Origin: Alphaproteobacteria bacterium
GTDB lineage: Bacteria; Pseudomonadota; Alphaproteobacteria; Sphingomonadales; Sphingomonadaceae
Direction of reading: 5' to 3'
DNA: 64,000 nucleotides
Assembly: GCA_018823905.1 (NCBI GenBank)
Contig: JAHJHL010000159.1
Location: forward strand, 1-64,000
Position numbers and translations under genes: made by a program. The first letter of the stretch is position 1. Each line of letters begins with the position of its first letter. The notes beneath the pieces were generated by a model. It was not told the DNA's origin and searched no databases. It saw only the letters and a program-made list of their open reading frames with translations. This document shows, piece by piece, positions 56,487 through 64,000 of this stretch.

Positions 56487-57335
56487 TCAATGCACCGGTG
56501 GGTCGACCGGGGGAACGGCGTGGATCGGCGCCACCGGCTCGCCCGGTTGGCGCGGCGGTAGCGCGTCGGTGGGAATGTCGGTGATCTGCATGTCGGGGGT
56601 GGGGACCGCAGCAACGTTGCGGACGCGGACTTCGACCTCGCCATCCTTGATCCGCAGCTCGTTAAAACTTGGCGGGGTCGACCGGATGCGCTGCGACAAG
56701 GTGCCCGCGCCGATCATGCGGATCGGACCCGCGGCGGTCGGAGCGACGAGGTCGAATGCGTCATGAACATGGCCCGTCAGCACCGCGGCGACGCCGCGCG
56801 CCGCCAGCGCTTCCAGCGCGCGCGCGCCGCCGCGGGTTAGGGCGCGCCCTTTCGTCCCGGCCTCGACCAGCGGATGATGCGCGGTGACGAGCGCCGCGGT
56901 GCCACGCGGGAGCGCGTCGATCGCGGTCAGCGTTTTGTCCAATGCATCGCGCGTGACCCAGCCCTTCGACCAGTCGAGCCGCCACTGCGCGCGCGCGGTA
57001 GTCTTGAGCGGCACCACCGCAACATCGGCAAAATCGAGCTCGCGCTCGACCAGCCGCTCGATCCGCCTGATCCGGCGATAGGGCCAGAAAAAGCGCGCGA
57101 ACGGGTTGAAATAGGGCAGATCGTGATTGCCAACCTCGACGGTGACCGGCACGTCAAGCGCCTCGATCCAGTCGCACGCCGCTGCAAACTCGCGGCTACG
57201 GGCGCGCATCGTAAGATCGCCGGTAATCAGCACCGCGTCGGGTTGTTCGCGGCGGACGCATTCGCGGAACCAGTCGAGCGCAGCACGATCCTCGAGTCCG
57301 AAATGCAGGTCGCTGATATGGAACAACCGCGTCAT
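56487..57335 (-). CDS. Metallophosphoesterase
   Basis: RLFHISDLHFGL, DAVLITGDLTMRARSREF, GNHDLPYF, VTAHHPL, VLTGHVHDAF. Confidence 0.95.
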   Translation of the reverse strand: MTRLFHISDLHFGLEDRAALDWFRECVRREQPDAVLITGDLTMRARSREFAAACDWIEALDVPVTVEVGNHDLPYFNPFARFFWPYRRIRRIERLVERELDFADVAVVPLKTTARAQWRLDWSKGWVTRDALDKTLTAIDALPRGTAALVTAHHPLVEAGTKGRALTRGGARALEALAARGVAAVLTGHVHDAFDLVAPTAAGPIRMIGAGTLSQRIRSTPPSFNELRIKDGEVEVRVRNVAAVPTPDMQITDIPTDALPPRQPGEPVAPIHAVPPVDPPVH

Positions 57336-58162
57336 GCCGTCGCGATGAAATCGACCGCGCTGGACCCGAGCGAAAATGTTGCGGGCGACGCCACCTCGTT
57401 CAGTTCGCCATCGAACTCCAGGCTGATCGGCTTCTCGCTCTCCAGCATGATCGTGTCGGCGGTGGTGATCGGCTCGCTCGGCCCGTCACGGAAATCGCCG
57501 CCCAGCCACGCGAGACCGTGGCGCAGCACGTCTCCGGTGCCGTCGGTCAATATGCCGTCGGCGCGGATGCCGGTCGGCGTTGGGGTCAGGATGACCGCCG
57601 GATAGTCTTTACCGTCGGCGCCGACGCGGACGCCAGGGCCGTTCATCATCTCGTCGAGCGCTTCAGGTGCGGCGCGGCTCGCCTCGATGATCCCGTCTTG
57701 CCGCATCGTCTCGCGCACCTCGGCCCAGCGCGTCGCGGGGCCGGCGATGACCGTGATAAAGGCTTCGCGGGCATCGGAGAGGATCGTCGGGATCAGGCTG
57801 CGACGGGCGGTGCTTTGCAAGGCGTCGGTCAAAATCTCCGGCACCGGGCGATCGCCGTGCAGCGCCTTGGACAGCAGGTTGAGCGTCCCGCCGGGCAGCA
57901 CCAGAATCGCGCCGTCCCATCCCGCCGCCTTGGTCGCTGCGGCGTTGATCGTGCCGTCGCCGGTCCACGCCAGCAGCAAGTCGATGCCTTGCCGTTGTAG
58001 TTCGGCGGCATCAGGAATGTCGCCGTCGGGCAGTGCGAACGTGGCTACAAGCGGCGCGCCATTCGCGCGGCAAAGTTCGACGATCTGCTCACGAACGGCT
58101 TCGTCATGGCTGCCGCTCTGAGTGTTGCAGACAAGGGCGGGGCGGGAGAAGGGGCTGGTCAT
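57332..58162 (-). CDS. Diacylglycerol kinase family lipid kinase
   Basis: ALVCNTQSGSHDEAV, LLAWTGDGTINAAATKAAGWDGAILVLPGGTLNLLSKAL; ATGA overlap with the phosphoesterase gene. Confidence 0.88.
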   Translation of the reverse strand: MTSPFSRPALVCNTQSGSHDEAVREQIVELCRANGAPLVATFALPDGDIPDAAELQRQGIDLLLAWTGDGTINAAATKAAGWDGAILVLPGGTLNLLSKALHGDRPVPEILTDALQSTARRSLIPTILSDAREAFITVIAGPATRWAEVRETMRQDGIIEASRAAPEALDEMMNGPGVRVGADGKDYPAVILTPTPTGIRADGILTDGTGDVLRHGLAWLGGDFRDGPSEPITTADTIMLESEKPISLEFDGELNEVASPATFSLGSSAVDFIATA

Positions 58163-58266: not shown

Positions 58267-59220
58267 ATGACAGCGCAGATTTCCAAAGGACGGCGGGTGC
58301 TCAAGTTTCTGGTGGTGGCCGTCCTGCTCGTGCTGCTGGTCGGCGGCGCGACGCGGATGATCGTCGCGGGCGGGGCGAAATCGCTCAACATCGGCGACCG
58401 GTTGCTCGGCGACAGCGAAGGCGCGACGTTGCAGGTCGCGGGGCAGCCCTATGGCGCTGGGGAGCGCAACAAACTCAACATCTGGGTGCCGACGGGAACC
58501 AAGAAAACCGACAAGCTCCCGGTGCTCGTCTGGCTCTACGGCGGCGGCTGGTACAGCGGTCAACGCGACGATTATGGTTTCGCGGGGCGCGCCTTTGCCA
58601 AACAGGGCTTCATCGTCGTCATCCCCGACTACCGCCTGGTGCCTGAGGGACATTGGCCTGACTTCCTGCAAGACAGCGCTGCGGCAGTCGCATGGACCGA
58701 GAAAAATATCGAAAACTACGGCGGCGATCCGGGTCGCATGGCGCTGGCGGGGCATTCGGCGGGGGCGTATAATTCGCTGATGTTGGCGCTCGACCCGCAG
58801 TGGCTGAAGGCGGCGGGCAGCGATGCGTCGGTCATCCGCGGCGTCTTATCGCTCGCCGGGCCGACCGATTTTTACCCGTTCGAAAAGGGCGGCCGCGCCG
58901 ATGTCGCGATGGGCGACATCCGCCCGGTCGAACAGACGCAGCCGATCACTTTCGTGCGCGCCGATGCCCCGCCGCTGTGGCTCGGTCATGGCACCGCCGA
59001 CACCGTGGTGCGGGTGCGTAACAGCCAGCGACTGGCGGCGGCGATGCACAAGGTTGGCGGTTCGACGACCCTGCGCGAATATGACGGGCTGAGCCACAAT
59101 GACCTGGTCATGGCGCTGACCAAACCGCTGGCGTACAAAGGGCCGATCCTGCCCGAGATGACCGATTTCCTGCGCGGCGTCACCGCGCGCCGTGTCTCGC
59201 CCACGCCACGCGCCGAATGA
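58267..59220 (+). CDS. Alpha/beta hydrolase (carboxylesterase/BD-FAE-like)
   Basis: LPVLVWLYGGGWYSGQRDDY oxyanion region, MALAGHSAGAYNSLML nucleophile elbow, HNDLVM. Confidence 0.92.
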   Translation: MTAQISKGRRVLKFLVVAVLLVLLVGGATRMIVAGGAKSLNIGDRLLGDSEGATLQVAGQPYGAGERNKLNIWVPTGTKKTDKLPVLVWLYGGGWYSGQRDDYGFAGRAFAKQGFIVVIPDYRLVPEGHWPDFLQDSAAAVAWTEKNIENYGGDPGRMALAGHSAGAYNSLMLALDPQWLKAAGSDASVIRGVLSLAGPTDFYPFEKGGRADVAMGDIRPVEQTQPITFVRADAPPLWLGHGTADTVVRVRNSQRLAAAMHKVGGSTTLREYDGLSHNDLVMALTKPLAYKGPILPEMTDFLRGVTARRVSPTPRAE

Positions 59221-60002
59221 TCCCGGCGATCATTCTCGCGGGCAGCCGCCCCGGCCCCGACCCGTTGCTGACGGGCAGCGGCGTATCGACCAAGGCGCTG
59301 CTGCCGATCGCGGGCCACGCCATGCTGGTCCATGTCGTGACGGCGCTGCGCGCCTCGCCGCTGGTCGGGCGGATCACGATCCTGGCGCAGAACAGCGCCG
59401 AGCTGGCCGCAGAGCCGGGGCTGGCGGATTTCGCCGACCTGCAATTTGAGGATTCGGGGCAAGGGATCAGCAGCTCGCTCGCCGCGGCGCTGCCCGTCGG
59501 AGACGATCCGCTGCTGGTCACGACCGCCGACCATGTGCTGCTCACCCCGACGATGATCGCCGAATTCCTGACCGGTGCAGCCGACAGCGACGTCGCGGTG
59601 GCGATGGTCGAGCGCGCCGTGCTGCTCGCGCGCTATCCGGAATCCAGACGCACCTGGCTGAAGTTCGGAGGCGGCTGGTGGTCGGGGGCGAACCTATTCT
59701 ACCTGCGCGGGCGACGCGTGCTGCCGCTGCTCGATTTCTGGGGACGGATCGAACGCGACCGCAAAAAGGGACTGAAGATCATCGCGGCATTCGGCCCGTG
59801 GCTGCTGATCGGTGCGCTGCTCCGTCTGTTCACGATTCAGCAGGGGGTCGCACGCGCGGGGCTGCGTTTCGGGCTGAAAGCGACGGTTGTGCCGATGTCC
59901 GAGGCCGAAGCGTGCATCGACGCCGACAAACCCGCCGACATCGATCTGATCGAGCGGATATTTGCCGCGCGGGGCCAAGCCGCTATAGGGCCCAAACCAT
60001 GA
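59217..60002 (+). CDS. MobA-like NTP transferase (nucleotidyltransferase) family protein
   Basis: AIILAGSRPG...VSTKALLPIAGHAMLVHVVTAL, LVTTADHVLLTP; overlaps the hydrolase stop. Confidence 0.85.
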   Translation: MIPAIILAGSRPGPDPLLTGSGVSTKALLPIAGHAMLVHVVTALRASPLVGRITILAQNSAELAAEPGLADFADLQFEDSGQGISSSLAAALPVGDDPLLVTTADHVLLTPTMIAEFLTGAADSDVAVAMVERAVLLARYPESRRTWLKFGGGWWSGANLFYLRGRRVLPLLDFWGRIERDRKKGLKIIAAFGPWLLIGALLRLFTIQQGVARAGLRFGLKATVVPMSEAEACIDADKPADIDLIERIFAARGQAAIGPKP

Positions 60003-60763
60003 CCATCGAAAAAGCCATCATCCTGTCGGCCGGGCAGGGTTCGCGCCTGCTGCCGCTGACCCGCGACATCCCCAAATGCCTGATCGACCTGAACGGTCGC
60101 ACCCTCATTGGGTGGCAGGTTGCGGCGCTCGCCGCCAACGGCATTAAGGACATCGTCGTCGTCACCGGATTTCGGACCGAGCGCGTCGAGGATCATGCGT
60201 TGCAGCTCTATCGCGACACCGGGGTGCGCATCCGCACATTGTTCAATCCCTTCTTCCAGGTCGCCGACAATCTGGGTACCTGCTGGATCGCGCGTGAGGA
60301 AATGGACCGCAATTTCATCATCCTCAACGGCGACACCATCATTTCGGATGAGATCGTCGCGAAGCTGATCGCGGGCGCCAATGAGCCGATCACCGTCACC
60401 GTCGACGTCAAAGCCGACTATGACGACGACGATATGAAGGTGAACCGCGACAGCGAAGGGCGCCTGCATCATATCGGCAAGCGGTTGTTGCCGCCCGACA
60501 CCAACGCCGAATCGATCGGCATGCTGGCGTTTGTCGGCGACGGCCCGTCGATCTTTCGCAACCAGGTCGACCAAATGATGCGCACCCCCGAAGGGGTTGA
60601 GCGCTGGTATCTGCGCGCCATCGACGTCATCGCCAAAGGCAACCGCGTCGGCACCGTATCGATCGAAGGGCTGGAATGGCAGGAAGTCGATTTCCCGCAG
60701 GACGTCGAAGCCGCCGATGTGCTCACCGCCCGGTGGGCGGCGGCGGGACTCTACGCGAAATAA
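59999..60763 (+). CDS. Phosphocholine cytidylyltransferase-like (LicC-type) nucleotidyltransferase
   Basis: KAIILSAGQGSRLLPLTRDIPKCLIDLNGRTLIGWQV, FNPFFQVADNLGTCWIAREEM, FIILNGDTIISDEIV. Confidence 0.88.
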   Translation: MTIEKAIILSAGQGSRLLPLTRDIPKCLIDLNGRTLIGWQVAALAANGIKDIVVVTGFRTERVEDHALQLYRDTGVRIRTLFNPFFQVADNLGTCWIAREEMDRNFIILNGDTIISDEIVAKLIAGANEPITVTVDVKADYDDDDMKVNRDSEGRLHHIGKRLLPPDTNAESIGMLAFVGDGPSIFRNQVDQMMRTPEGVERWYLRAIDVIAKGNRVGTVSIEGLEWQEVDFPQDVEAADVLTARWAAAGLYAK

Positions 60764-61179
60764 GGCTTGAGCCAGTCGGTCAGCGCCGCGACCTGCGCCG
60801 CATCAAGCTTCACCGCCTGCGCCAGATCGGGCTGCCCCGACCAGCCCGCGTCGGCAACGGTCAAGCCCGCGCCCGAGCGTTCGCCGTCGTAGCGCGGCAG
60901 GACATGGAAATGGACGTGCGGGTCGACCATCATAAGCATCAGATAGTTGATCCTGGCATAGCCGACCGCGCTGGTCAGCGCCGCCTCGATCGCCGCGGTC
61001 ACGACCTTGAGCTCGGCATGCGCCGCGGCTGGCAGATCGCCGAACGCCGTCGTGTCGGACTTCGCCGCCAACACCAGCGCGCCGAGCGTCGGCTGTGCGG
61101 GACGCAGCAGCACGACCCAATGATCATATTCGGCGATCAGCGTTGCGGGGTGGCCGAATCTCACAATGGTGTCGTTCAT
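60751..61179 (-). CDS. HIT family protein
   Basis: DPHVHFHVLPRYDGE histidine triad. Confidence 0.93.
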   Translation of the reverse strand: MNDTIVRFGHPATLIAEYDHWVVLLRPAQPTLGALVLAAKSDTTAFGDLPAAAHAELKVVTAAIEAALTSAVGYARINYLMLMMVDPHVHFHVLPRYDGERSGAGLTVADAGWSGQPDLAQAVKLDAAQVAALTDWLKPYFA

Positions 61180-62279
61180 GCTTCTTCCATCCAGCTGACA
61201 ATCGGGCGGCCGGCGCGCCGCTCTGCATAGGCCTGCACCAATTGCACCGCGTGGACCACCAGCGAGATGATCGTCCACCAGGCGACTGCGATCAGCCCGA
61301 TGTCGGGGCGTCCGGCGAGGGTAGCGAAGAACAGGATCGCGATATTCGGGTTGCGCCGCGCCGTGATCAGGCGGAACTGGCTGTCGAAGCGGCGCCAGAC
61401 ATGGACGTCCATGCCGAAATCCTTGATGAACATCCCTTCGATCACGCGCTGGAGCACATAGCCCGCGACGACCGCGATCATCACCAGCAGAAAGGTTTGA
61501 TCGGAGAGCGCCAAGCCCCAAGTACCAAGGCCGACACCCCAGAAATACCACCAGAAGGGCGGGTGAACCAGATCGACGCCATGGTCGGCGACATTACCCC
61601 ATTTCGACGAAGTGATCGTGCAGCGCGCCAGCTTTCCGTCGACGGTGTCGAACACCATGAAGATGAAGGCGGCGAGCATTCCGGTCCAGTAATGGCCGTA
61701 GGCGAAGAGATAGGTCGCATAAATGCAAAGCGCCGCGCCGATCGCGGTGACCATGTTTGGGGTCATCCCGATGCTTGCGGCGATCCGCGTCAGCCACAAC
61801 GCCAGTTCGGGCCACAAATATTTGGTCAGCAGATCGGTGACGCCTTTGTACGCCCCGAAATAGCTTTTACGCTCGATTTCGCGCCGCGTGTCGGGGGTCA
61901 GCCGCTGGATGAAGGGGCATTCGAGCTTGCGCAGCTGGCGGTTATAGATTTGCGGATTGTCGCGGTAGTCGATGATCGTCAGCGCGTCGCGGTGCGCTGC
62001 GATATTATCGGGGGTCATGCCGCCGGTCAGATGCGCCATGACCAGCGCGTCGCCGTCCATCACCACCGTGCCCGGCAGGGTGACGATATGGCGCAGCCAC
62101 ACCGGATCGAAGACATAGTCGAGATTGACGTATAATTGCGCGCCCGACGGCGGCACGGTTTCAGGGAAGCCTTCCGCACGGGCCATTCGGCGCAGCCGTT
62201 CGGCGTTCGTCATGCCCCACAGCAAAGTCGGATTGTCGCCGATCGGCGTCAGGGCGGGCAGCGTCGTTGGTTCGCTCAT
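61176..62279 (-). CDS. CDP-alcohol phosphatidyltransferase family protein with about 165-aa N-terminal extension
   Basis: DTVDGKLARCTITSSKWGNVADHGVD matches D-x2-DG-x2-AR-x8-G-x3-D-x3-D exactly; TM segments. Confidence 0.93.
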   Translation of the reverse strand: MSEPTTLPALTPIGDNPTLLWGMTNAERLRRMARAEGFPETVPPSGAQLYVNLDYVFDPVWLRHIVTLPGTVVMDGDALVMAHLTGGMTPDNIAAHRDALTIIDYRDNPQIYNRQLRKLECPFIQRLTPDTRREIERKSYFGAYKGVTDLLTKYLWPELALWLTRIAASIGMTPNMVTAIGAALCIYATYLFAYGHYWTGMLAAFIFMVFDTVDGKLARCTITSSKWGNVADHGVDLVHPPFWWYFWGVGLGTWGLALSDQTFLLVMIAVVAGYVLQRVIEGMFIKDFGMDVHVWRRFDSQFRLITARRNPNIAILFFATLAGRPDIGLIAVAWWTIISLVVHAVQLVQAYAERRAGRPIVSWMEEA

Positions 62280-63415
62280 CCGCCGCTCTTATCCGCTGCC
62301 GCGTCCTTTGCAAGGAAGCGCGCGATCGCTTCGGCCCCGCGCCGTGCCGCGCCCGCGGGGTCGCCGCCAATCGATTCAGCCAGCCGTTCGCGCTGCGCGT
62401 CGATATAGCGCGGATGATGCGCAGTGGCCTGATCGAGCGCGTCAGGGAGGTCGGAGATATCGTCGATCACGTCGCCAAGCGTCCAGAACAGATAGTCAGG
62501 ATCACCTTCCCAATCGACTTCATGCGCGTTGAGGAACAGGCATGGGCGCGGGGTCGACAGAAATTCATACACCTGGCTGCTGACATCGCCGAGATAGATG
62601 TCGGCGCCGCTGGTATAGCTCATGTCGAACAGGCGATCGGAGCCGAGGTCGATCAAAATCTTGCCCGGGACGGCGAATGCCTTCACCGCGGCGCGGTCGG
62701 CATCGCTGGCTTCGGCGAACAGGCGGATATGCGGTGCGACGACCAGATTGTAGCGATCCTGCGCCGCGAACCAATCGATGATGTCGCGTCCGAAACAATC
62801 CCACGACGACAATCCGCGGTGGAAATGCGGCGCATAAAGGACGGTTGGGCGACCATTGTCGAACAGCGGTGCGCGCGTCTTGTCCAGCCGCGCCATCAGG
62901 TCCAGCTTCACATAGCCGTTCAGGGCGTAATGGCCCGCTCGGATCGTCCCAGCCTCGAGCAGTCGCTGCTCGCTCTTTTCCCCCGCGACCAGCACAAAAT
63001 CGAAATGCCGATCGCGCGGGTCGAGCATGATCGCCCGGTCGCCCGCGCCATGCGGGGTAAAGATCAGCCGCGTCCGGCGCGGCAGGAAGTGGCGGATTGC
63101 CGTCGTTGTCCGCTCGGGGACGACGATCGCATCGAACTGGCGCAGATAACGCAGCGCGCCGAACAGGATCGGCAGGCGCGGATGGCGAATGATCGCGCGG
63201 GCGCGCAGCCAGCGGCTGATCCCGCGCTGGCCGAGCAGCCCGATCCGCGGCGCAAAGCCCGGATAGGCCGCCGCCACCTGCTCGACCACCGGCAGATGTG
63301 CGGCGCTCGCCACCGCGACCTCAACGTCGGAACCGGTCGCTGCCATCTCGGCGGCAATGGGCAGCGCGTGGAAAATCTGGTGCGGTTCGCCGATAAACAG
63401 GAAGAGAATTCGCAT
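62276..63415 (-). CDS. CDP-glycerol glycerophosphotransferase-like / glycosyltransferase-B-fold protein
   Basis: LIFTPHGAGDRAIMLDPRDRHFDFVLVAGEKSEQRLLEAG, PTVLYAPHFHRGLSSWDCFG, ADIYLGDVSSQVYEFLSTPRPCLFLNAHEVDW. Confidence 0.82.
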   Translation of the reverse strand: MRILFLFIGEPHQIFHALPIAAEMAATGSDVEVAVASAAHLPVVEQVAAAYPGFAPRIGLLGQRGISRWLRARAIIRHPRLPILFGALRYLRQFDAIVVPERTTTAIRHFLPRRTRLIFTPHGAGDRAIMLDPRDRHFDFVLVAGEKSEQRLLEAGTIRAGHYALNGYVKLDLMARLDKTRAPLFDNGRPTVLYAPHFHRGLSSWDCFGRDIIDWFAAQDRYNLVVAPHIRLFAEASDADRAAVKAFAVPGKILIDLGSDRLFDMSYTSGADIYLGDVSSQVYEFLSTPRPCLFLNAHEVDWEGDPDYLFWTLGDVIDDISDLPDALDQATAHHPRYIDAQRERLAESIGGDPAGAARRGAEAIARFLAKDAAADKSGG

Positions 63416-64000
63416 TATCGAACCTTGGCGGCGGCGCCTGCCGTCGTTTCTTCAAAATCGGTCGTCTGCCAGCCGTGCTGTGTCGCCAGCCGGACAAATT
63501 TGTCGCCGCGTCCGACGAGCCAGGCTTCATCGGCGAGAGCGAAGGTCGGCGCATCGCTGATATGGTCTGAATAGGCGCGGATATGCGCGGTGCCGGGCGC
63601 GTGGGTGCTCAGCCATTCGGCTACCCGCCGCGCCTTTTCGGCGCCGTAGCAATTGGGTCCGTCGAGCATCGGCAACCAATTGCCGTCGGCGTCGCGCTGG
63701 TGGCGCGAGGCGACGATCGCGTCGAAGCCGAGCGCATCAGCAATTGCGCCTGCGTAAAATTCGGGCGCCGCGGTGGCCATCAACAGCTGGTATCCCTCGG
63801 CCCGGTCGCGCGCGATGCTGGCCTGCGCGCCTGGCGGCACATCGCGCTGCACGCGCCAGGCGGCGAAATGCGCGGCAAGCCCTGAAGCGCGTGCGGGGGT
63901 CAGATGCGGTCCGAGCATCAGGCGGATCGCGCTAGGTTTGAACCGGTCGCGGCCATAGAGACGTAGCGCATAGCCGATCATCAGTGCGGCGAGCGCAGGC
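63415..64000 (-). CDS. HAD-superfamily (HAD-IB, phosphoserine-phosphatase-like) hydrolase, N-terminus beyond window
   Basis: Motifs II-IV seen (MATAAPEFY, YGAEKARR, YSDHISDAP); DxDxT motif I not in window, so the gene is probably truncated at the edge. Confidence 0.82.
   Translation of the reverse strand, partial: PALAALMIGYALRLYGRDRFKPSAIRLMLGPHLTPARASGLAAHFAAWRVQRDVPPGAQASIARDRAEGYQLLMATAAPEFYAGAIADALGFDAIVASRHQRDADGNWLPMLDGPNCYGAEKARRVAEWLSTHAPGTAHIRAYSDHISDAPTFALADEAWLVGRGDKFVRLATQHGWQTTDFEETTAGAAAKVR

Follow-up and report, generated by a model that had tools for sequence, protein, structure and literature searches.

The window analyzed here is a stretch of 64,000 nucleotides (bases 1–64000 of the 66,373-base contig JAHJHL010000159.1, from a 3.69 Mb draft sphingomonad genome), and its right-hand end carries a cluster of six genes encoding two nucleotidyltransferases (NT1 and NT2), a HIT-family protein (HIT), a CDP-alcohol phosphotransferase (CDP-OH), a TagF-like GT-B transferase (GT) and a HAD-family phosphatase (HAD). 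The cluster is likely, in a judgement we hold with good confidence, to act in the later of two stages by which a phosphosphingolipid headgroup is built, as in the pathway that makes ceramide diphosphoglycerate (CPG2) in Caulobacter; its genes very probably lengthen the charged headgroup of a sphingolipid in the outer membrane. The module to which most of these genes belong is an exchangeable cassette within the genus. That genus is very probably Sphingopyxis; two Sphingopyxis records (L184 and L185) have the same gene order, with NT2 identities of 91 and 95%. The pathway is known in kind, and what appears to be new is that its genes come as a swappable cassette, for which there is an alternative encoding an LmtA-like protein; a literature search that covered few subscription journals returned no description of this exchange.

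Probable correspondence with the Caulobacter CPG2 genes

The CPG2 cluster of Caulobacter crescentus spans CC_1152–CC_1168 (PMC11324152, PMC12275187). CTP:phosphoglycerate cytidylyltransferase activity belongs to CC_1152, or CpgD (PMC12275187). Of the other products, CC_1153 resembles CofC, a CDP-alcohol transferase domain is found in CC_1159 (CpgA), ceramide is phosphorylated by the kinase CC_1160 (CpgB), addition of the first phosphoglycerate depends on CC_1161 (CpgC), and CC_1166 may act as a flippase (PMC11324152). Scattered orthologs have already been reported in Sphingomonas wittichii and Zymomonas (PMC11324152). A preliminary description of the window had proposed that a phosphodiester headgroup is built from CDP-activated precursors in this sphingomonad, with a TagF-like enzyme taking part and a sphingolipid as one possible carrier, and in this it was right, the lipid probably being a sphingolipid. 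Its suggestion that the pathway was undescribed has to be given up, as NT1, NT2 and CDP-OH appear to correspond to CC_1153, CC_1152 (CpgD) and CC_1159 (CpgA), and, very probably, the cluster genes are to sphingomonads what the CPG2 genes are to Caulobacter.

For NT2, comparison was made with the crystal structures of CpgD, in which the CTP-, magnesium- and glycerate-binding residues are identified (PMC13228409). All 12 side chains checked are present in NT2 (G12, R16, K26, N90, T93, N110, G111, D112, M147, K161, S170 and W201) at offsets of 0–2, with identical numbering for G12, R16, K26, N110, G111, D112 and K161. A PDB search returned no chain close to CpgD, the best match being 1jyk (E = 7.5e-14). 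The surroundings of 80 NT2 homologs from Proteobacteria and beyond were read, and CpgA or a core sphingolipid gene lies at 64 of these loci; across the same 80, many of them on short contigs, the counts are 47 for NT1, 46 for CpgA, 41 for HIT, 33 for CerS, 21 for SPT and 19 for GT. CpgD-type genes together with SPT, CerS, CerR or AasR were also seen in Desulfobacteraceae, Geobacter, Nitrospirae and Thiotrichaceae records (L122, L125, L137 and L160), which lie outside the published examples and may include binning errors of metagenome-assembled genomes (MAGs).

The CDP-OH motif D-x2-DG-x2-AR-x8-G-x3-D-x3-D is intact at residue 211, and its catalytic Asp residues are invariant in 23 of 23 orthologs. 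An AlphaFold (AF2) model of the protein (pLDDT 92.7) matches AF2299 over its full length (TM 0.70), including the N-terminal domain, which is degenerate and cytidylyltransferase-like. In one alphaproteobacterial family (L038–L041, L043 and L044), three CDP-alcohol transferase paralogs surround the sphingolipid cluster, one of them directly after LptG2.

The tie to sphingolipids was followed across genomes. Among 288 alphaproteobacterial genomes, 41 have SPT and 21 a CDP-OH ortholog, and SPT is present in 21 of those 21 (p = 6.5e-21, kinship ignored). In distant alphaproteobacteria (L035, L036, L041, L045 and L050), orthologs of CDP-OH, NT1, HIT, GT and the flippase described below, in varying subsets, are clustered with SPT, ACP, CerR, AasR, CerS, CpgB, CpgC, LptF2 and LptG2. 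Like clusters were found in Azotobacter, Amphiplicatus, Azospirillum, Desulfobacteraceae and Nitrospirae records, the nearest named anchors for comparison being Azotobacter beijerinckii (L183) and a Caulobacterales MAG (L168). The preliminary description saw no sphingolipid synthesis gene in the window, which is correct in that the core genes lie off the locus; the same genome does have them, on contig C78 (L194), in the order CerS-LptG2-LptF2-CpgB-CpgC-SPT-ACP, and the SPT matches solved bacterial SPTs (2x8u, E = 6.5e-212). The core sphingolipid locus and the cassette locus are 33–93 kb apart in 15 of the 18 relatives that have both on one contig. The lipid kinase gene of the window (DAGK) was considered as the ceramide kinase, or CpgB counterpart, and was rejected because the CpgB homolog adjoins CpgC and SPT on C78.

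The remaining proteins could be assigned less closely. GT had been called CDP-glycerol-transferase-like; the label holds for a remote TagF relative and fails at the level of family membership, since the window protein has no Pfam match above cut-off and does not reach the PF04464 gathering cut-off. PF04464 scores on GT homologs are 12.5 and 17.3 of the 22.1 bits required, and the L035 homolog gives E = 0.0025. When a profile of 21 GT orthologs was compared with the PDB, TagF-like Cps3D (E = 5e-4) and TarL (E = 0.019) were recovered. The AF2 model of GT (pLDDT 91.6) has a GT-B fold with TM scores of 0.63–0.65 to TagF (3l7i/3l7j), and UDP-GlcNAc 2-epimerases match equally well. GT is conserved at 37–45% into the sphingolipid clusters of Azotobacter and Desulfobacteraceae. 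On this evidence from profiles and modelling, GT is a remote TagF relative whose action is plausibly TagF-like, and it is not assigned as a member of the family.

The best NCBIfam match of HAD is TIGR01490, its match to PgpC being weak. The preliminary description advised looking past position 64000 for transporters; doing so completed HAD, which the window edge truncates (236 amino acids in full), and revealed a Wzx-like flippase with a Polysacc_synt_3 domain (64122–65732). Among HIT homologs near NT2, the first histidine of the triad is often missing, HxHxH being present in 21 of 41; in those of the others that were looked at, the first position is N, Y or an E/P-type residue and the following two histidines are kept. 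Because HIT directly precedes LptF2 in several clusters, CC_1157 may be the Caulobacter HIT gene, though it was called probably unrelated in PMC11324152.

Alternative cassettes between the flippase and NT1

The comparison set comprised 60 congeneric genomes, in which the slot was taken as the region between the flippase and NT1. CDP-OH is present in 35 of these genomes and NT2 in precisely those 35 (cassette A). In non-carriers the locus is intact, with sdhB, flippase, slot, NT1, esterase, DAGK, phosphoesterase, Rv3169-like and APH-like genes, and in 16 of the 20 non-carrier loci that were read the slot contains two other genes of ~1.6 kb together (cassette B). The first encodes a membrane methyltransferase (PEMT, PF04191), for which LmtA is by far the best family match (TIGR04571, E = 5e-32), at 111.5 of the 325 bits of the curated cut-off. 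The second encodes a P-loop kinase-like protein with weak dTMP-kinase matches, which is paired with the methyltransferase in 16 of 16 loci; no chain near it was found in a PDB search. The methyltransferase is present in 20 of 25 non-carriers versus 1 of 35 carriers (Fisher p = 2e-10, kinship ignored), the lone carrier copy lying at a contig end and matching in part, at 65%. Neither cassette is present in 5 of the 60 genomes; the 20 loci read include four without either, of which L227 is empty and L225, L231 and L233 differ. In L225 (6453–12041, genome G300), the slot is occupied by glycosyltransferases together with another flippase and a TagF-like gene, and may represent one more cassette type.

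In trees of distal-flank genes, carriers of A and B interleave, with 6–7 changes between the two (bootstrap 5–7; shuffled mean 13.5). Trees of the adjacent flippase and NT1 require 3–4 A/B changes (point values, bootstrapping having been applied on the distal side only), and fewer changes on the proximal than on the distal trees would be expected if cassettes were exchanged together with their nearest flanks. The module is an exchangeable cassette within the genus. Judging from the predicted enzymes, the locus probably sets whether a sphingolipid phosphate is extended (A) or methyl-capped (B), which suggests that a cell-surface lipid headgroup is switched by gene swapping. The G+C content of the cassette (0.62–0.65) is barely below that of the flanks (0.65–0.68), so composition alone gives no mark of foreign origin.

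Cassette A is itself variable. Mean identity between carriers is 94% for NT2, 87% for HIT, 82% for CDP-OH (minimum 67) and 67% for GT (minimum 38). The GT slot of the 35 carriers holds the window type in 24, a second TagF-like type in 7 and a GT4 glycosyltransferase in 3, and is empty in 1. When L085 and L099 are compared, the flanks are 95–99% identical, a segment that starts inside the flippase and runs through CDP-OH is 66–85% identical, and GT is missing in L099; read from these alignments, the difference is a recent replacement. Apart from the variable GT slot, gene order is retained in the congeneric carriers read at length, and conservation of the neighborhood, the lack of which the preliminary description had named as grounds for abandoning its proposal, is thereby confirmed.

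NT1 belongs to the constant frame. It is present in most non-carriers of cassette A at 80–88% identity, its homologs adjoin CerS in many sphingolipid clusters of other genomes, and its best NCBIfam match is CofC, far below the cut-off. As NT1 persists in species that lack NT2 and CDP-OH, it probably acts in a step shared by the two cassette types, in contrast to the published scheme, where CC_1153 is assigned only to CPG2.

Proposed pathway and rival explanations

In the proposed pathway, the core locus elsewhere in the genome would make ceramide, phosphorylate it (CpgB) and, with CpgC, turn it into ceramide phosphoglycerate. NT2 would then convert CTP and 2-phosphoglycerate to CDP-glycerate, and CDP-OH would pass phosphoglycerate to the lipid with release of CMP, both reactions being borrowed from Caulobacter. 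The TagF-like protein would probably add a further phosphodiester-linked unit, HAD may remove a phosphate, a nucleotide by-product may be cleared or used by HIT, and the Wzx-like flippase may move the lipid across the inner membrane. In species with cassette B, a lipid phosphate, perhaps made by the kinase of that cassette, would be methylated. We further propose, tentatively and as something that falls just short of an even bet, that this polymorphic sphingolipid-headgroup locus of Sphingopyxis plays the part of an O-antigen or teichoic-acid locus for bacteria with a sphingolipid outer leaflet, and that a constant flippase and nucleotidyltransferase frame swappable cassettes: A would lengthen the lipid phosphate by phosphoglycerate units, perhaps several of them, with CpgD, CpgA and the TagF-like protein as the enzymes, B would methyl-cap it through the LmtA-like protein, and the transferase genes in A would themselves be exchanged.

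Several points weigh against assignment to CPG2. Orthology to CC_1152, CC_1153 and CC_1159 rests on residue numbers, domain match and neighborhood rather than on direct alignment; the cassette cluster and the core sphingolipid genes lie apart; and NT1 is retained in species without NT2 and CDP-OH, whereas CC_1153 is needed for CPG2, so that the division of labor may differ. The TagF-like protein, the Wzx-like flippase and a GT slot that varies like a polysaccharide locus would also suit a teichoic-acid-like or capsule-like polymer made from a CDP-glycerate precursor on another anchor (undecaprenyl or a glycan), the sphingolipid link then being incidental. We regard this as quite unlikely: no initiating transferase, polymerase or ligase was seen beside the cluster, the homologs lie inside sphingolipid clusters of unrelated genomes, CDP-OH was found only with SPT, and enzymes of its family work on membrane lipids. 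That CDP-OH is instead a phosphatidylinositol-phosphate (PIP) or archaetidylinositol-like synthase, in a cluster that makes an inositol (phospho)lipid with HAD as the matching phosphatase, is very improbable. Its best NCBIfam matches are indeed PIP synthase families, its best folds are AF2299 and PIPS, and HAD is weakly PgpC-like; however, every NCBIfam score falls far short of its cut-off (49.8 bits against an equivalog cut-off of 170, and 25 of 350 bits for the PIPSynBT1523 model), NT2 has the phosphoglycerate-contacting residues of CpgD, and the neighborhood is of the CPG2 type.

A role in cofactor synthesis (molybdopterin or F420) or in ordinary phosphatidylglycerol (PG) or phosphatidylethanolamine synthesis is hardly credible. 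The weak resemblance of NT1 to MobA and CofC speaks for the former, but the scores are far below cut-off, and a molybdopterin/F420 role for NT1 was rejected on that account; ordinary PG or phosphatidylinositol synthesis by CDP-OH was likewise rejected, given its low NCBIfam scores and two other PF01066 genes (contigs C75 and C128) that are likelier housekeeping enzymes. NT2 and CDP-OH are, moreover, absent from 25 of the 60 congeners. For the exchange itself, it is conceivable, if rather doubtful, that cassettes A and B are unrelated and merely share an insertion hotspot next to sdhB, in which case the swap would be uninformative on headgroups. The locus is clearly recombination-prone, and the neighboring DAGK gene is polymorphic too; yet both cassettes look like lipid-phosphate enzymes (CDP-OH and TagF-like in one, LmtA-like in the other), and the two occupy one slot, bounded by the flippase and NT1, almost to each other's exclusion.

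Locus layout and relation to known systems

The preliminary description of a minus-strand chain with overlaps of 1–4 bp, met by a converging chain of esterase and nucleotidyltransferases, agrees with the open reading frame coordinates (Table 1). All six open reading frames of the cluster are intact. The plus-strand chain consists of esterase, NT1 and NT2, and the minus-strand chain of flippase, HAD, GT, CDP-OH and HIT converges on it. Overlaps are 4 bp for esterase/NT1, NT1/NT2, HIT/CDP-OH, CDP-OH/GT and HAD/flippase and 1 bp for GT/HAD, and the convergent 3′ ends of NT2 and HIT overlap by 13 bp. Beyond the flippase lies a divergent sdhB, followed by the contig end at 66373.

Table 1. Coordinates of the cluster genes and neighboring flank genes
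Feature	Position	Strand	Basis and remarks
EST, BD-FAE-type alpha/beta hydrolase	58267..59220	+	PF20434 5.6e-33; constant flank, in cassette A carriers and non-carriers
NT1, MobA/CofC-like nucleotidyltransferase, CC_1153-type	59217..60002	+	NTP_transf_3 4e-14; constant in both cassette types
NT2, predicted CpgD-type CTP:phosphoglycerate cytidylyltransferase, cassette A	59999..60763	+	NTP_transferase; 12/12 CpgD side chains
HIT-family protein, cassette A	60751..61179	-	PF01230 1.8e-4; triad HVHFH
CDP-OH, CpgA-type CDP-alcohol phosphotransferase, cassette A	61176..62279	-	PF01066 4e-9
GT, TagF-like GT-B transferase, cassette A	62276..63415	-	Fold and remote profile matches; most variable gene
HAD-IB phosphatase, cassette A	63415..64125 (64000 = window end)	-	PF12710 8e-30, whole protein
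Lipid kinase (DAGK_cat), constant flank	57332..58162	-	PF00781 2.3e-10
Calcineurin-like phosphoesterase, constant flank	56487..57335	-	PF00149 2.4e-14

The DAGK slot beside the cluster (also read in L087, L088, L094, L096, L201, L208 and L211–L214) has two allele classes, with ~50–53% or 67–88% identity to the window copy, that are independent of cassette type. In single relatives, the Rv3169-like and esterase genes are apparently frameshifted, with matches split over frames (L203, 15066–16153; L228, 5859–6794).

Relative to Caulobacter CPG2, the window genome has the same CpgD-type cytidylyltransferase, CofC-like second nucleotidyltransferase, CpgA-type CDP-alcohol transferase and flippase, together with CpgB, CpgC, SPT, CerS and LptF2G2. 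It differs in that the genes are split over at least two loci, that the cassette is accessory and exchangeable within the genus, and that the cassette is tight and includes TagF-like, HAD and HIT genes, which have no part assigned in the published scheme. With the TagF/TarL enzymes of wall teichoic acid and the TagF-like capsule polymerases (PF04464), GT shares the GT-B fold, remote profile similarity and an expected CDP-polyol-type donor, but differs in its sub-threshold Pfam score and its equal fit to the epimerase fold. As in the inositol sphingolipid cluster of Bacteroides (PMC9246714), a CDP-alcohol transferase would place the lipid headgroup in a sphingolipid maker, although headgroup precursor and gene set differ. 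LmtA of Leptospira, a lipid A 1-phosphate O-methyltransferase, is the closest family to the membrane protein of cassette B, which scores below the curated cut-off and, unlike LmtA, has the context of a sphingolipid locus rather than lipid A.

In Caulobacter, CPG2-type sphingolipids support survival without lipopolysaccharide and set polymyxin sensitivity (PMC11324152, PMC12275187). If sphingomonads swap headgroups by cassette exchange, sphingolipids would serve them as the basis of a system for surface variation. Species that carry either A or B at this locus offer a natural experiment on headgroup function and on phage or antimicrobial-peptide sensitivity, one that also bears on the unassigned CPG2 steps of the TagF-like, HIT, HAD and CC_1153-type proteins.

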